The notes under the pieces are model-generated. The model ran no database searches. It was not told the DNA's origin and saw only the letters and a program-made list of their open reading frames with translations. The translations under genes and the position numbers were made by a program. Below are positions 7,422 to 12,013 of a stretch of 51,151 nt of DNA, piece by piece. The DNA is taken from the NCBI GenBank assembly GCA_009841005.1, contig VXMR01000151.1, positions 1-51,151 of the forward strand, read 5' to 3'. Position 1 is the first letter of the stretch, and every line of letters starts with the position of its first letter. The DNA comes from Gemmatimonadales bacterium (GTDB taxonomy: Bacteria; Gemmatimonadota; Gemmatimonadetes; Palauibacterales; Palauibacteraceae).

Positions 7422-9593
7422 ATGCGGTTCGCAAAGACAATATGGGGTCGGCGGCGGGCGTGGGCGGTCGGGGTGGCGTGGGGCGTCTCGTTCGCCGCGC
7501 TCCCGGTCTCCGCCCAGGAAGCGGGAACCCCGATCGACTACGACGCCGCGATCGCGCAGAGCGGAATCGACGGCAGCTACGGGTACCTTAGCGCGCTGGA
7601 AGGGTCCGCGACGCTCATTCAGGGAGACACCCGGGAGCGCATCCAGCTCTCGGTGAACGAGCCCGTCCTTGTCGGCGACCGGATCTTCGTGTCCGACGAA
7701 TCGCGCATCGAGATTCTGCTCGCCGACGGAAACCTCGTTCGGATCGGGGACCGGGCGGAGCTTGTCTTCCGCGCGCTCGCCAACTCGGCGGATTCGAGCG
7801 ACCCCGCCTCCATCCTCGAACTCGCGCGCGGATCGCTGCAACTCGTGGTGGCCGCGAATCCGCCGGCGGCCGAAGGGCCCTCCGTCATCACGCCGAACGC
7901 GACGATCCGGCCGCAGGGAGCGGGTGCCTTCCTGATCCTCGTCGACGACGGGGGCCGCAGCGAGATCGTCGTGCGCGAGGGGGTGGCCGAGGTCACCACG
8001 CAGTCCGAACTCGCGGAGGTTCGCCCGGGAGAGAGCCTGTTCGTAGAGGGAGCGCAGGGCGACCGGCTCCGCTTTGCGGCGGCCCCGGGTCTCCAGCAAC
8101 TGGAAGCGTGGGGGCGGGGGCTCGCCGACCAGGCGGGCGGCGAGTACGCCGCTCACGTGGACCCGGACCTCCACTACGCCGCGTCTTCGCTCGGGGGGCA
8201 CGGGTCGTGGGTGCAGGTGGACGCGGGGGTCGCGTGGCGTCCGCGGGTGTCCACGGGCTGGGCCCCGTACCGACACGGGCGCTGGCGAAACACGCCCAGC
8301 GGAATGTTCTGGGTCTCCTACGAGCCGTGGGGCTGGGTTCCCTACCACTACGGGTACTGGGACCTCGATCCGAACTGGGGCTGGATCTGGTTCCCCGGCC
8401 GCCGTTTCGCCGTGGCGCACGTCTACTGGTACTGGGGCCCGAGCTACGCGGGCTGGATTCCGTCGGGATACTACTGGCGCCACTACCGGAGTTATTACGG
8501 GAGCAGTTGGGGCTTCCACTTCGGCGTCTACGGACACATCGGGGGCGGCTTCGGGCGGTATCGGCACTGGACGTTCCTGCCGCACGGGCGCCTCGGACAC
8601 CGGCGACAGCACTTCTACTCGGTGGGCGGTTCGGACTTCGGCCGCGGGCGAAAGGCGGTCGAGCGAGGCGTCCTGCTGACGGATTCCCGTCTGCTCGGGC
8701 GGCAGGCGCAGCGGCGACCCGCGCAGACGCTGGCGAGTCTCAGGCGCGCGGTCTCGCGTGACGGGAGGACGGCGGTCGATGCGAACGGCTTCATCGATCG
8801 CGGCGCGAGCCTGCCGCGGGATGTCGAACGCGTCGTGCTACGGAGCCGCGATGGCCGGTCGGCCCGCCCGCGCGACGCGACCGCCGGAATGCGGAACGGC
8901 ACCTCGCGGACGGCCGGTTCGCCGCGTGTTCGCGTGACCACGCGGTCGCCCGAGGCCGGCGCGTTGCGGCTGGAGCGGTCCGGCGCGCAGGGGACGACGC
9001 GGACCGGCGTGCAGCGGGCGACGCCGCCCGCGGACGGGACCGGAGCCCGCCCGGCGATCCGGCGGCCCACGGCGCGGGCGCGGGATGTGCCCGACGCCGT
9101 GAGACGACCGGTCGTGCGGCCCACGACGCGCACGGGTTCCGGCGGCGTACAGCGCGCGTCCCCGCGGACGGGCGACGACGGCGTTCGTCGGATCGTTCGC
9201 CCGCGGACGGCGCGGGAGTCGCCGGCCGTTCGGCGGACGGGAGGCTCGACGACGCGGCCGACGGCACGGTCGAATCCGGCGAGGCCGACCGTGCGGTCCA
9301 CGCCGGCGCGACCAGCGGCGCGGCCCACGACGACGAGACCCGTGACCCGGCAACCCGCCCCGCGGTCATCGCGGCCGGCGGCGCGGCCTTCCGGCCCGTC
9401 GAGGTCGAGCGGCACCGTCAGTCGTTCCAGCGGCGGGTCCCGATCCGGGGGCGCGGTCCGCCGCTCCGGCGGCAGCTCCCGATCCGGCGGCACGGTCCGC
9501 CGCTCCAGCGGTAGCTCCCGATCCGGGGGCGCGGTCCGCCGCTCGGGTGGCAGCTCCCGATCCGGAGGTGCCGTTCGCCGATCGGGCGGCTAG
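7422..9593 (+). CDS. FecR-domain, DUF6600-like secreted protein with a disordered basic tail
   Basis: The 723-residue protein begins with a signal peptide (WAVGVAWGVSFAALPVSAQE). A FecR-like domain follows (about 60-170: GDRIFVSDESRIEILLADGNLVRIG, then REGVAEVTTQ). Residues about 255-420 are extremely rich in Trp, Tyr and Gly, with repeated units of the type SYEPWGWVPYHYGYW and NWGWIWFPGRRF, as in DUF6600 proteins. From about 440 to the end the chain is almost only Arg, Ser, Thr, Pro, Gly and Ala and must be disordered; its last 55 residues are 13-residue repeats. It starts at ATG 7422 after GGGAG. No FecI-type sigma factor or TonB receptor adjoins it, so a classic iron-signalling role is unlikely; it may bind cell-surface polymer or nucleic acid. 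Confidence 0.85.
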   Translation: MRFAKTIWGRRRAWAVGVAWGVSFAALPVSAQEAGTPIDYDAAIAQSGIDGSYGYLSALEGSATLIQGDTRERIQLSVNEPVLVGDRIFVSDESRIEILLADGNLVRIGDRAELVFRALANSADSSDPASILELARGSLQLVVAANPPAAEGPSVITPNATIRPQGAGAFLILVDDGGRSEIVVREGVAEVTTQSELAEVRPGESLFVEGAQGDRLRFAAAPGLQQLEAWGRGLADQAGGEYAAHVDPDLHYAASSLGGHGSWVQVDAGVAWRPRVSTGWAPYRHGRWRNTPSGMFWVSYEPWGWVPYHYGYWDLDPNWGWIWFPGRRFAVAHVYWYWGPSYAGWIPSGYYWRHYRSYYGSSWGFHFGVYGHIGGGFGRYRHWTFLPHGRLGHRRQHFYSVGGSDFGRGRKAVERGVLLTDSRLLGRQAQRRPAQTLASLRRAVSRDGRTAVDANGFIDRGASLPRDVERVVLRSRDGRSARPRDATAGMRNGTSRTAGSPRVRVTTRSPEAGALRLERSGAQGTTRTGVQRATPPADGTGARPAIRRPTARARDVPDAVRRPVVRPTTRTGSGGVQRASPRTGDDGVRRIVRPRTARESPAVRRTGGSTTRPTARSNPARPTVRSTPARPAARPTTTRPVTRQPAPRSSRPAARPSGPSRSSGTVSRSSGGSRSGGAVRRSGGSSRSGGTVRRSSGSSRSGGAVRRSGGSSRSGGAVRRSGG
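9426..9590 (+). repeat. 39-bp in-frame tandem repeats at the 3' end of the FecR-domain gene
   Basis: Four complete 39-bp units (9426-9464, 9465-9503, 9504-9542, 9543-9581) and a 9-bp partial unit end at the stop codon. Each encodes 13 residues of the form SGGSSRSGGAVRR. Units differ mainly at third codon positions and a few substitutions (Ala/Thr, Gly/Ser), so the copies have had time to diverge while the protein pattern was kept. The array is the kind of tract that changes copy number between strains. Confidence 0.9.
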
Positions 9594-9605: not shown

Positions 9606-10175
9606 TCAGGAATCCGGCCATACGGCCGGGTCCCGCTCCATCTCCGGCTCCGGTTCGACGCCGAGCGCCTCGACCATGCGGACGTAGTAGTTGAAGAAGC
9701 CGACGACTTCGGTCGCGGTCAGGATCTGCGCGTCGGTCCAGCCGACCTCTCGCAACTCGTCGGTGTCCCGCCGGGCTGTGGAGGTCGGGTCGCGCGTGAT
9801 CGCCACGGCATAGTCCATCAGGCGGCGCGTCTTTTCGTCGAGCCCCGCCGTCCGGTAGTCGGCGCGGATCGCGCCGGCCAGTTCAGCGTCTCCAGTGGCC
9901 TGACGGAGATCCTCTCCGTGCGCCTCCGTTCAGTAGAAACAGTCCAGTTCGCGCGAGGTCACGGTCGCGAGCATCTCGCGCACGTCCCGCGCCAGCGGTC
10001 CCGGCGCCAGCATCAACGCCTCGTAGAGCTGGATCGAGGCGCGCATGACGGGCGGGTTCAGGCTCTGGATGCCGATCACGTTGAAGACGCGCCCCGCGCG
10101 GCGGACGGCCTTCTCGTACTCGCGGGCCACGAGCCCTTTCGCTTCGTCGGGAGCTACCGTCTCGATATGCGGCAT
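9606..10175 (-). CDS. AhpD-like (carboxymuconolactone decarboxylase family) probable selenoprotein, in-frame TGA
   Basis: Read through the TGA at 9930-9932, the frame gives 189 residues, the normal length for peroxidase-related AhpD-like enzymes, which reduce peroxides with a CxxC thiol pair. The N-terminal part runs to RELDCFY; the TGA then stands at residue 82, exactly where the second active-site cysteine is expected, giving C79-x-x-U82. It is followed by TEAHGEDLRQ, with the conserved histidine (H86) four residues on. The C-terminal part (LMDYAVAITRDP...GWTDAQILTATEVVGFFNYYVRMVEALG) is intact and typical. A hairpin directly after the TGA fits a bacterial SECIS. Translation starts at ATG 10175 behind AGGAGG. 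The gene follows the hydroxyproline dehydratase gene by 60 bp. A nonsense-mutated pseudogene is the alternative. Confidence 0.8.
9903..9919 (-). promoter_or_regulatory. SECIS-like hairpin following the in-frame UGA
   Basis: In the mRNA, 10 nt after the UGA, ACGGAGA pairs perfectly with UCUCCGU around a GGA loop (7-bp stem, 3-nt loop). The apical loop begins 18 nt after the UGA and opens with G. Bacterial SECIS elements have a small apical loop with a G among its first two bases, about 16-37 nt from the UGA, so geometry and loop fit. A second copy of ACGGAG directly after the UGA could pair with the same 3' arm, giving an alternative longer-loop form. Confidence 0.65.
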
Positions 10176-10235
10176 GCCGCCTCCTGTGGGCGATGGATCC
10201 GGGGTGCGAGTCAGCTCATCGGCGGAACCGGCTCC

Positions 10236-11264
10236 TCAGCGTACGAGGAAGCCGTCCCGCCACGGGTCCTCCGGATCGACGAGGAACTCGTGACGGCCCG
10301 TCACCCAGGCCCGGCCGCCGACCTCCGGCACGACGGCCTCGTGCCCGCCGACCGACGTCGTCTCCACGACGCGGCCGCTGAACCGGCCGCCGATGATGCT
10401 CTCGACGATAATCTCCGCAGCCCCGGACCCCTCCCCACGCGCGTGAAGGATGGCGAGGCGGCCGCTCACTGCCGTCCCCGTCGGACTTCGGTCGAGTTCC
10501 CCGTCCGCGAAGATGCAGACATGCCGCGAGTGGTGTGCGGTGTCCGCCGCCGCCCCCGTGAACACGGTGCCGTAGAGAAACCCGAGATCCGGGTCGTCCG
10601 GATGCGAGATGTGATTCGCGGCGGACGAAGACACTGCGCGCGTGATCCGGCGCCCCGCGTCGATGAGGTCGGCGGCGGCGGCGGGTGTGAGGGCGAGCCC
10701 GAGCGCGTCCGCATCGACGTACGCGTAGAAGGCCCCGCCGAAGGCGAGGTCGTACGGCACGGTACCCAGCCCCTCGACCTCCACGGCCTGGCCCAGAGCG
10801 GGCGCGAAGGAAGGCACGTTGACGAACCGGACCTCGCTGACCCGCTCGCCGTCCACGATCGCGGTGGCGCCCACGAGCCCGGCGGGCGTGTCGATCACCA
10901 CGGGCCGCTCCCGCGCCGACCCGTCGATCCAGCCGGCTTCGACGGCGATCTTCGCCACGCCGATGATCCCGTGGCCGCACATGGTCGAATAGCCCTCGTT
11001 GTGCATGAACAGGACGGAGAAGTCGGATCCGGCCCGGACGGGCGGCATCACGAGGCAGCCGTACATGTCCGCGTGCCCTCGCGGCTCCCACATCAGCGCG
11101 CGGCGGAGTTCGTCGTGGTCCGCTCGCGCGACGCGACGCCGTGCGAGGACCGTGTCTCCCTCCAACTCCGGGAAGCCCGCCACGATGACGCGGAGCGGCT
11201 CTCCCTCGGTGTGAGCGTCGATCGTCTCGATGCGAAGCCAGTGTCCGGGCGCGGTCCAGGTCAT
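10236..11264 (-). CDS. Trans-3-hydroxy-L-proline dehydratase (proline racemase family)
   Basis: The protein has 342 residues from ATG 11264, which follows GAGGAG by 5 nt; the frame is open further upstream but that part has no family similarity. It belongs to the proline racemase superfamily (RIETIDAHTEGEPLR near the N-terminus). The first catalytic cysteine, C96 in MCGHGIIG, is present. The second catalytic position is threonine, T262 in DRSPTGTAVSG, instead of cysteine. In this family Cys/Cys means racemase or epimerase, and Cys/Thr is the signature of trans-3-hydroxy-L-proline dehydratases, which make pyrroline-2-carboxylate. No ketimine reductase is visible nearby. The aquaporin-like gene is divergent, 140 bp away. 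Confidence 0.88.
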   Translation of the reverse strand: MTWTAPGHWLRIETIDAHTEGEPLRVIVAGFPELEGDTVLARRRVARADHDELRRALMWEPRGHADMYGCLVMPPVRAGSDFSVLFMHNEGYSTMCGHGIIGVAKIAVEAGWIDGSARERPVVIDTPAGLVGATAIVDGERVSEVRFVNVPSFAPALGQAVEVEGLGTVPYDLAFGGAFYAYVDADALGLALTPAAAADLIDAGRRITRAVSSSAANHISHPDDPDLGFLYGTVFTGAAADTAHHSRHVCIFADGELDRSPTGTAVSGRLAILHARGEGSGAAEIIVESIIGGRFSGRVVETTSVGGHEAVVPEVGGRAWVTGRHEFLVDPEDPWRDGFLVR

Positions 11265-11404
11265 GTGAACTCCTCGGTGAGGCGGTGGCCCCCATCGACG
11301 GGATCGTCGTATGCTGGCGTCGCTGATCTTACACCCCGTCGCCGCAGTCCGCTCCAGCGGCGGCTCGCCGCGCTCCGCAACGGTTGCCTGCTTCAGGAGA
11401 AGGC

Positions 11405-12013
11405 ATGAAACCAAGGGCTCTCGCCGCCGAACTCGTGGGCACGTTTGCGCTCGCGGTGTCCGCCGTGATCTCCGTCAACAACCCCGGTTTTCCCATCCCG
11501 GCGCCGGCGATGGCGGGACTCACGCTGGGCGTCCTCGTTCACCTGCTCGGGCCTGTCTCGGGCTGCCTGCTCAACCCGGCGGTGACGATCGCCATCTGGT
11601 CGATCGGCAGACTCGAGGCGAAGGATGCCGGCTCGTTCATCGCGGCGCAGCTTGCGGGGGCCGGACTGGCCCTCGCCCTCGGAAGCGTCCTGTTCGCAGA
11701 TCCGGTCCCGCTCCTTGTAGACGCGTCCGCCAGCACCGGCGTCGCCGAGATGCTGGGAGCTGCGTTGCTCGCCTTCACGATCGGGGCCGTCTTCATGGGC
11801 CGCATCCCCGACCGGCTGACCGGCGCCGTCATCGGCGCGGCACTCGTCGTGGGAATCTCCTGGGCCGCGCACGGATCGAACGGAGTACTCAATCCCGCGG
11901 TGGCCTTGGGGATCGGTTCCTTCTCGTTCCCCTACGTCTGGGGACCGGTCGTCGGCGCCCTGATCGGCGCGCACCTGTCCCGATACGTCCGCGATCCCGG
12001 CGACGCCCCGTAG
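11405..12013 (+). CDS. Aquaporin/MIP-family channel with atypical filter
   Basis: The 202-residue membrane protein starts at ATG 11405 behind AGGAGAAGGC. It has six hydrophobic segments and the two hallmark half-helix motifs, LNPAV at residues 56-60 and LNPAV at 162-166, so it is a member of the major intrinsic protein family (water or small-solute channel in the inner membrane). Two details differ from classic aquaporins. The residue after the second NPA is Val, where nearly all have the selectivity-filter Arg. The first motif is preceded by GCL rather than GAH. The protein is also short for the family (usually about 230 or more). Substrate therefore uncertain. Confidence 0.85.
   Translation: MKPRALAAELVGTFALAVSAVISVNNPGFPIPAPAMAGLTLGVLVHLLGPVSGCLLNPAVTIAIWSIGRLEAKDAGSFIAAQLAGAGLALALGSVLFADPVPLLVDASASTGVAEMLGAALLAFTIGAVFMGRIPDRLTGAVIGAALVVGISWAAHGSNGVLNPAVALGIGSFSFPYVWGPVVGALIGAHLSRYVRDPGDAP

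Follow-up and report, generated by a model that had tools for sequence, protein, structure and literature searches.

We conclude that a gene on the minus strand of the window (the whole 51,151-nucleotide stretch analysed here, contig VXMR01000151.1 of a Gemmatimonadales bacterium) very probably encodes a genuine bacterial selenoprotein belonging to the TIGR01926 AhpD-like family, with an in-frame TGA at codon 82 (9930..9932) that would be read as selenocysteine (Sec). A sequence-only reading of this DNA had proposed such a protein and argued against a pseudogene. That proposal is supported by the TGA column in relatives, by selection past the TGA, by covariation in the hairpin that follows it and by the Sec genes of the genome.

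The coding sequence (9606..10175, minus strand) comprises 189 codons and was assigned from its translation, its TIGR01926 score, a Pfam CMD match of 42.8 bits and its orthologues in the genus. It begins with an ATG (10173-10175) preceded at 4 nt by the Shine-Dalgarno sequence AGGAGG (10180..10185), and it ends at a TGA (9606-9608). Under the standard code the open reading frame at this locus is only 81 amino acids long (9930-10175). Translation gives 81 codons up to the TGA at 9930-9932 and 107 sense codons beyond it, which agrees with the earlier count; the strand, which the sequence-only reading had left unstated, is the minus strand. The earlier placement of the TGA at the second active-site cysteine is likewise borne out, as the site reads C79-F-Y-U82-T-E-A-H86. 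Cys79 (9939..9941), the CxxU partner of Sec82, aligns with the first CxxC cysteine of 2pfx and 2oyo. Glu67 (9975..9977), Cys79, Tyr81, Sec82 and His86 (9918..9920) are all invariant in an alignment of 16 sequences.

The TGA recurs at the same column in relatives. Among 151 loci taken from overlapping collections, 147 have TGA at the Sec column and four have TGC, with no other stop inside the matches; after removal of duplicates, the 147 TGA loci leave 122 distinct TGA sequences. The 151 loci comprise 30 and 40 from a protein search of 100 genomes, the paralogue in the same genome as the window, and 80 from a named genome collection. The 40 were hand-chosen from the protein-search list and include 4 of its 8 stop-less rows; the 80 are the best 80 of 340 relatives, one conserved search pattern having required Cys at the site. 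The protein search of 100 related genomes gave an in-frame TGA in 94 of 102 listed matches and none in 8, two of which end short of the site, and the codon at the Sec column was checked for 71 of the 102. Orthologues were found in 13 of the 16 same-genus genomes searched, own genome included, and the named TGA loci belong to Gemmatimonadota, Acidobacteriota, Planctomycetota, Chloroflexota, Marinimicrobia and Actinomycetota. The earlier reading had suggested aligning homologues at residue 82, and TGA codons scattered over the gene in close relatives would have counted against it: the column contains Cys or TGA only, and none of the 151 loci has another stop inside its match. We therefore find the pattern by which bacterial selenoproteins are recognized, namely a UGA at the Cys column of homologues with the frame conserved on both sides, CxxC being present in 2pfx and 2oyo. 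The four TGC (Cys) versions (L086, L087, L091 and L092) are distributed as two in one starred clade and two on long branches, a scatter that would be compatible with Sec having been lost or replaced in separate lineages.

Selection was compared on either side of the TGA in 12 genus orthologues. Nonsynonymous relative to synonymous change per site was 0.167 upstream of the TGA and 0.194 downstream, so that purifying selection appears similar on both sides; since it continues past the TGA, the downstream protein would be made and used. Third positions varied at 1 of 9 sites in codons 82-90, compared with 3-8 of 9 in every other nine-codon block of these orthologues. This synonymous freeze over the TGA and the hairpin argues that the RNA there is under a constraint of its own. 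A pseudogene or an assembly error, with a real or artefactual nonsense mutation and an 81-residue fragment as product, would agree with the interruption of the frame under the standard code and with an assembly in 158 contigs. Against it stand the same TGA in 147 of 151 loci and in a second, non-identical assembly of the species, which has the same TGA and hairpin (99.8% identity over 3,587 bases), together with the purifying selection downstream and the frozen synonymous sites. We give this explanation a negligible probability and, judging from the conservation data, it appears already refuted.

The selenoprotein reading also calls for a signal that recodes the UGA. The sequence-only reading had pointed to a perfect 7-bp hairpin with a GGA loop starting 11 nt past the TGA, and sequence and fold both confirm it. 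The hairpin, ACGGAGA-GGA-TCTCCGT (9903..9919, minus strand), spans 11-27 nt 3' of the TGA with 7 perfect pairs, and its GGA loop (9910-9912), at 18-20 nt past the UGA, is a small apical loop with a G, as in bacterial SECIS elements. We assign it as a SECIS-type apical hairpin from its sequence, its fold, pairing in 44 rows of the family and the synonymous freeze. The predicted fold of the wider TGA and SECIS region (9888..9932, minus strand) has two short lower helices that lengthen the hairpin (MFE -17.2 kcal/mol, with an identical centroid). When the window gene was redrawn 5,000 times with synonymous codons, using the codon usage of this window and a simple scripted bacterial-SECIS rule, a stem of at least 7 bp appeared in 0.66% of redraws. 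The folding energy of the hairpin is weakly unusual against synonymous redraws (P 0.07) and has a z of -2.5 against dinucleotide shuffles, 2 of 200 shuffles being as good. The pattern TGA-N10-ACGGAGA-GGN-TCTCCGT occurs exactly twice in the genome, in the window gene and in a paralogue of 40% identity, where it is in frame. A third match, from a search for this SECIS pattern only, had 3 mismatches and was without TGA; it was rejected. Rfam and ARAGORN gave no matches on the window. What seems decisive for the hairpin and the TGA is comparative evidence, namely the recurrence of the TGA in relatives, most of which have a hairpin after it, and of both in the second assembly, rather than chance statistics. 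By its synonymous freeze and its covariation the hairpin behaves like a SECIS element, and it would be expected to bind SelB.

The paralogue (L062; contig C16, 28755-29249) gives this genome a second AhpD-like selenoprotein gene, with the site ACRY-U-IVHHG. Its SECIS motif, at C16:28908, has the identical 7-bp stem and a GGG loop at an equal distance from the TGA.

Across the family, the hairpin was found in more than one register. The 122 distinct TGA rows divide into 44 with this proximal hairpin, 57 with a distal one and 7 with a third register, while 14 fit none of the three. In the 44 distinct proximal rows 99.4% of cells are paired, a percentage inflated because these rows, like the 57 distal ones, were picked for pairing; when one arm is slid by 1 to 3 bases, pairing falls to 30-48%. 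Compensatory changes in the proximal hairpin run from G-C to C-G in 6 rows and from A-U to C-G in 5. Three of five covariation measures lie above all 500 shuffles, and the other two, pairs changed on both sides and further pair types, were matched by 150 of the 500. The distal hairpin (GACCTC-CGGGCC-GAGGTC, loop 25-30 nt past the TGA, 57 rows) shows double changes in 3 of its 6 pairs, with all five measures above 500 shuffles. Folding energy does not discriminate in the family: against synonymous redraws, P is at most 0.05 in 14 of the 122 distinct rows and has a median of 0.4. Mean stem length does discriminate (6.8 bp observed vs 5.2 bp in redraws), the family-wide redraws having applied this window's codon usage to all organisms. 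By the scripted SECIS rule, 5 of the 122 rows are without a stem of 5 bp.

Among the rows examined, the proximal register (loop 18-20 nt past the UGA) is that of the Palauibacter genes, many Acidobacteriota and several paralogues. The distal register (25-30 nt) is that of most other Gemmatimonadota rows, Chloroflexota, Marinimicrobia, Actinomycetota and some Planctomycetota and Acidobacteriota, and a lone-Sec side clade, GGAPU, has a hairpin register about 22-24 nt past the UGA. A quick protein tree was built from the 4 Cys rows and from the 122 distinct TGA rows less L080, L093, L096 and L097, which were dropped as short (118 TGA rows in all). On this tree the six register states need 13 changes vs 54 in shuffles, and therefore the register follows clades; the number and direction of the moves are unsure because this quick tree has weak deep branches, long rows and 10 rows classed as 'other'. 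The window gene falls together with L119, an Acidobacteria gene of 59% identity (branch support 82), and also with two Ktedonobacteria genes (support 93), apart from the distal-type genes of other Gemmatimonadota. We lean slightly towards a history in which the SECIS moved within the family, the UGA staying in place while its decoding hairpin was remodelled within the coding sequence that overlaps it, and in which the proximal-SECIS Palauibacter gene may have been exchanged with Acidobacteriota. Such an exchange between phyla would be a reasonable inference from the tree and the registers.

To insert Sec at codon 82 the cell would need the complete machinery, and the sequence-only reading had suggested a search for its genes, the absence of all of which would have spoken against a selenoprotein. 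The genome (3.16 Mb, 158 contigs, 96% complete) contains selA (496 bits), selB (371 bits) and selD (375 bits; L107, contig C41, 3286-4212), all over cut-off. The gene for tRNA-Sec, selC, is cut by a contig end and is whole in the same-species assembly. Specifically, tRNA-Sec above cut-off was not found in the genome's own assembly, and the 9 sub-cut-off matches were set aside, the 8 with loci being Ser, Leu, Tyr and Val tRNAs. The contig that carries selB, C76, breaks off 48 bases into a tRNA-Sec gene, past the TCA anticodon; over its last 1,520-1,550 bases it aligns at 89-96% identity with the tRNA-Sec regions of 7 relatives. In the second assembly of the species the tRNA-Sec gene is whole (79.9 bits), and the flanking sequence shows 99.8% identity over 1,500 bases. 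Each of the 15 other same-genus genomes searched has tRNA-Sec over cut-off, and ARAGORN reported tRNA-SeC(tca) at all 7 of the same-genus loci examined. The contig end explains the missing tRNA-Sec, and this explanation was tested and held. The selD gene carries an in-frame TGA of its own (SHGAG-U-ACKLGP); SelD proteins with Sec are of a known kind, and published selenoprotein counts include SelD.

The UGA could instead be read as another amino acid, through a general change of code or leaky readthrough with Trp or Cys, and the Cys codons at the site in 4 of 151 loci would be compatible with this. UGA nevertheless terminates the window gene and all 12 genus orthologues examined, and therefore it does not serve as a general sense codon. 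The presence of selA, selB and selD in the genome and of a UCA tRNA-SeC in relatives, along with a hairpin conserved at a fixed distance, also speaks against it, and we consider this reading very improbable.

Sec at this position would form part of a known type of redox site. The window protein scores 127.9 bits against the TIGR01926 'peroxidase-related enzyme' model, above its cut-off of 81.8, and 47.6 bits against NF041238 AhpD_rel_CFYUT, below its cut-off of 175; it matches five NCBIfam families at E <= 0.001, and classical AhpD (TIGR00777) is not one of them. NF041238, 'hypothetical protein 1' of the Sargasso Sea, shares a related C-terminal domain and has in its model name the CFYUT found in the window protein, but it is a 357-position model of which the window protein covers positions 218-341 only. 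An AF2 model of the window protein (pLDDT 87.9) has an all-helical AhpD-like fold. Its best PDB match is Deinococcus AhpD 6k40 (TM 0.84), followed by 2oyo, 2prr, 2pfx and 3c1l; normalised by query length, all five lie at TM 0.79-0.84. Lower in the ranking are PA0269, the debrominase Bmp8 and Sestrin-2. The CxxC site and the His of 2pfx and 2oyo align with the window protein, but both have Cys where it has Sec.

The proton relay is described, in the passages available from PMC3141380, as Glu118, Cys130, His132, Cys133 and His137 in M. tuberculosis AhpD and as Glu36, Cys48, Tyr50, Cys51 and His55 in PA0269. The spacing of these residues maps onto E67, C79, Y81, U82 and H86 of the window protein, so that Glu67 is spacing-equivalent to Glu118 and Glu36, and His86 to His137 and His55; both proteins have Cys where the window protein has Sec. 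Sestrin-2 matches the window protein at E 1.7e-6. According to the available part of PMC4674687, Cys125-x-Tyr127...His132 of its Sesn-A domain corresponds by spacing to C79-x-Y81...H86, but Leu128 stands at the position of Sec82.

We propose that a Sec-tRNA(UCA) made by SelA and SelD would be delivered by SelB, which would bind the 7-bp hairpin with its GGA loop 18-20 nt past the UGA, so that the ribosome would insert Sec rather than terminate at codon 82. The product would be a 189-residue all-helical protein in which Sec82 and Cys79 most likely form a redox pair, aided by Glu67, Tyr81 and His86. The Sec82 selenolate would likely attack a hydroperoxide and then form a selenenylsulfide with Cys79, an order of attack that we infer. 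The substrates may be peroxides, probably organic, and the pair may be re-reduced by cellular thiols as electron donor. Peroxide reduction is probably the main activity.

A selenoprotein catalysing another reaction, such as reductive dehalogenation, or acting as a thiol-disulfide adaptor, is in our judgement unlikely. The AF2 model also resembles the debrominase Bmp8 (6ohi/6ohj; TM 0.77, 13-14% identity). Brominated compounds occur in sponges, corals and marine sediments, and Sec carries out dehalogenation in deiodinases; we counted both points for dehalogenation. Palauibacterales are found in sponges, corals and marine sediments (PMC10469786, in the part available), and M. tuberculosis AhpD itself serves AhpC as an adaptor, as stated in the available passages of PMC3141380. 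These points are set against the nearest folds and sequences, which are peroxidase-related or AhpD chains (6k40, 2oyo, 2pfx, 2prr and 3c1l), against the AhpD proton-relay residues, which are kept, and against a gene neighbourhood that offers no substrate clue.

The neighbours of the gene are a proline racemase, an aquaporin, a glyoxalase-like gene, a FecR/DUF6600 protein and genes that we take to be KorAB and TolB-like, an arrangement kept within the genus only. The proline racemase family gene (10236-11414, minus strand) lies on the same strand and ends 60 bp upstream of the AhpD-like gene. It adjoins the genus orthologues except the most distant one (L043/L118), whose fetched flank is without it. 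The FecR/DUF6600 gene (7422-9593, plus strand) is convergent to the selenoprotein gene and encodes a long Arg/Ser/Gly-rich repetitive tail. Outside the genus, flanks of 1.5 to 4 kb yielded 6 weak TolB-like matches and one KorB match (26-44% identity), and no functional clue from gene order was seen in them.

We also observed a side clade within TIGR01926 with the site GAP-U (mostly GGAP-U-LGLHT), in which all 7 loci keep TGA at the Sec column and have lost both the partner Cys and the Tyr. Its loci (L088, L089, L090 and L094-L097, duplicated as L190-L196) have a hairpin of their own 15-31 nt past the TGA, and on their sequences they possibly encode a lone-Sec enzyme. Close matches to this GGAPU clade occur in 7 of 149 genomes of the class, with TGA in 8 of 8 matches, and a literature search for 'GGAPU' returned no paper.

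The earlier statement that bacterial AhpD-family enzymes with CxxU sites exist holds in the literature, to the extent of the passages available. They report CxxU AhpD-like selenoproteins from the Sargasso Sea in 2005 (27 sequences; PMC1088965) and again from GOS in 2008 (PMC2398784), and a 2026 review lists an 'AhpD-like protein, TIGR01926, CxxU' (PMC13188914). The window gene is a further example of this family, in print since 2005, and the comparative evidence for it is unusually complete. Like the published AhpD-like CxxU proteins (TIGR01926/COG2128), as far as the available passages describe them, it has the same family model, the CxxU motif and a bacterial SECIS with a G in a small apical loop. 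It differs from them in its genome context, of Candidatus Palauibacter by kinship and with all Sec genes, and in a hairpin register common to Acidobacteriota genes rather than to the sequence-nearest other Gemmatimonadota genes. Our search of open-licence papers found no reports of Gemmatimonadota AhpD-like selenoproteins or of Palauibacter selenoproteins. The selenoprotein reviews searched contain 0 occurrences of 'gemmatimonad', and the sole match to 'selen' in PMC10469786 is an author's name in a reference.

Our results point to a complete Sec system in Palauibacter-type bacteria. Because a standard gene caller reports only an 81-residue fragment, the redox enzyme is easily missed in this genome and in related ones. 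Since hairpins in different registers serve one and the same UGA, the family provides a natural series for examining what SelB needs of a SECIS; it is also suited to asking how a SECIS can shift within coding sequence while Sec is retained. What a specialist might not expect here is the register shift and the clade with a lone Sec, GGAPU.
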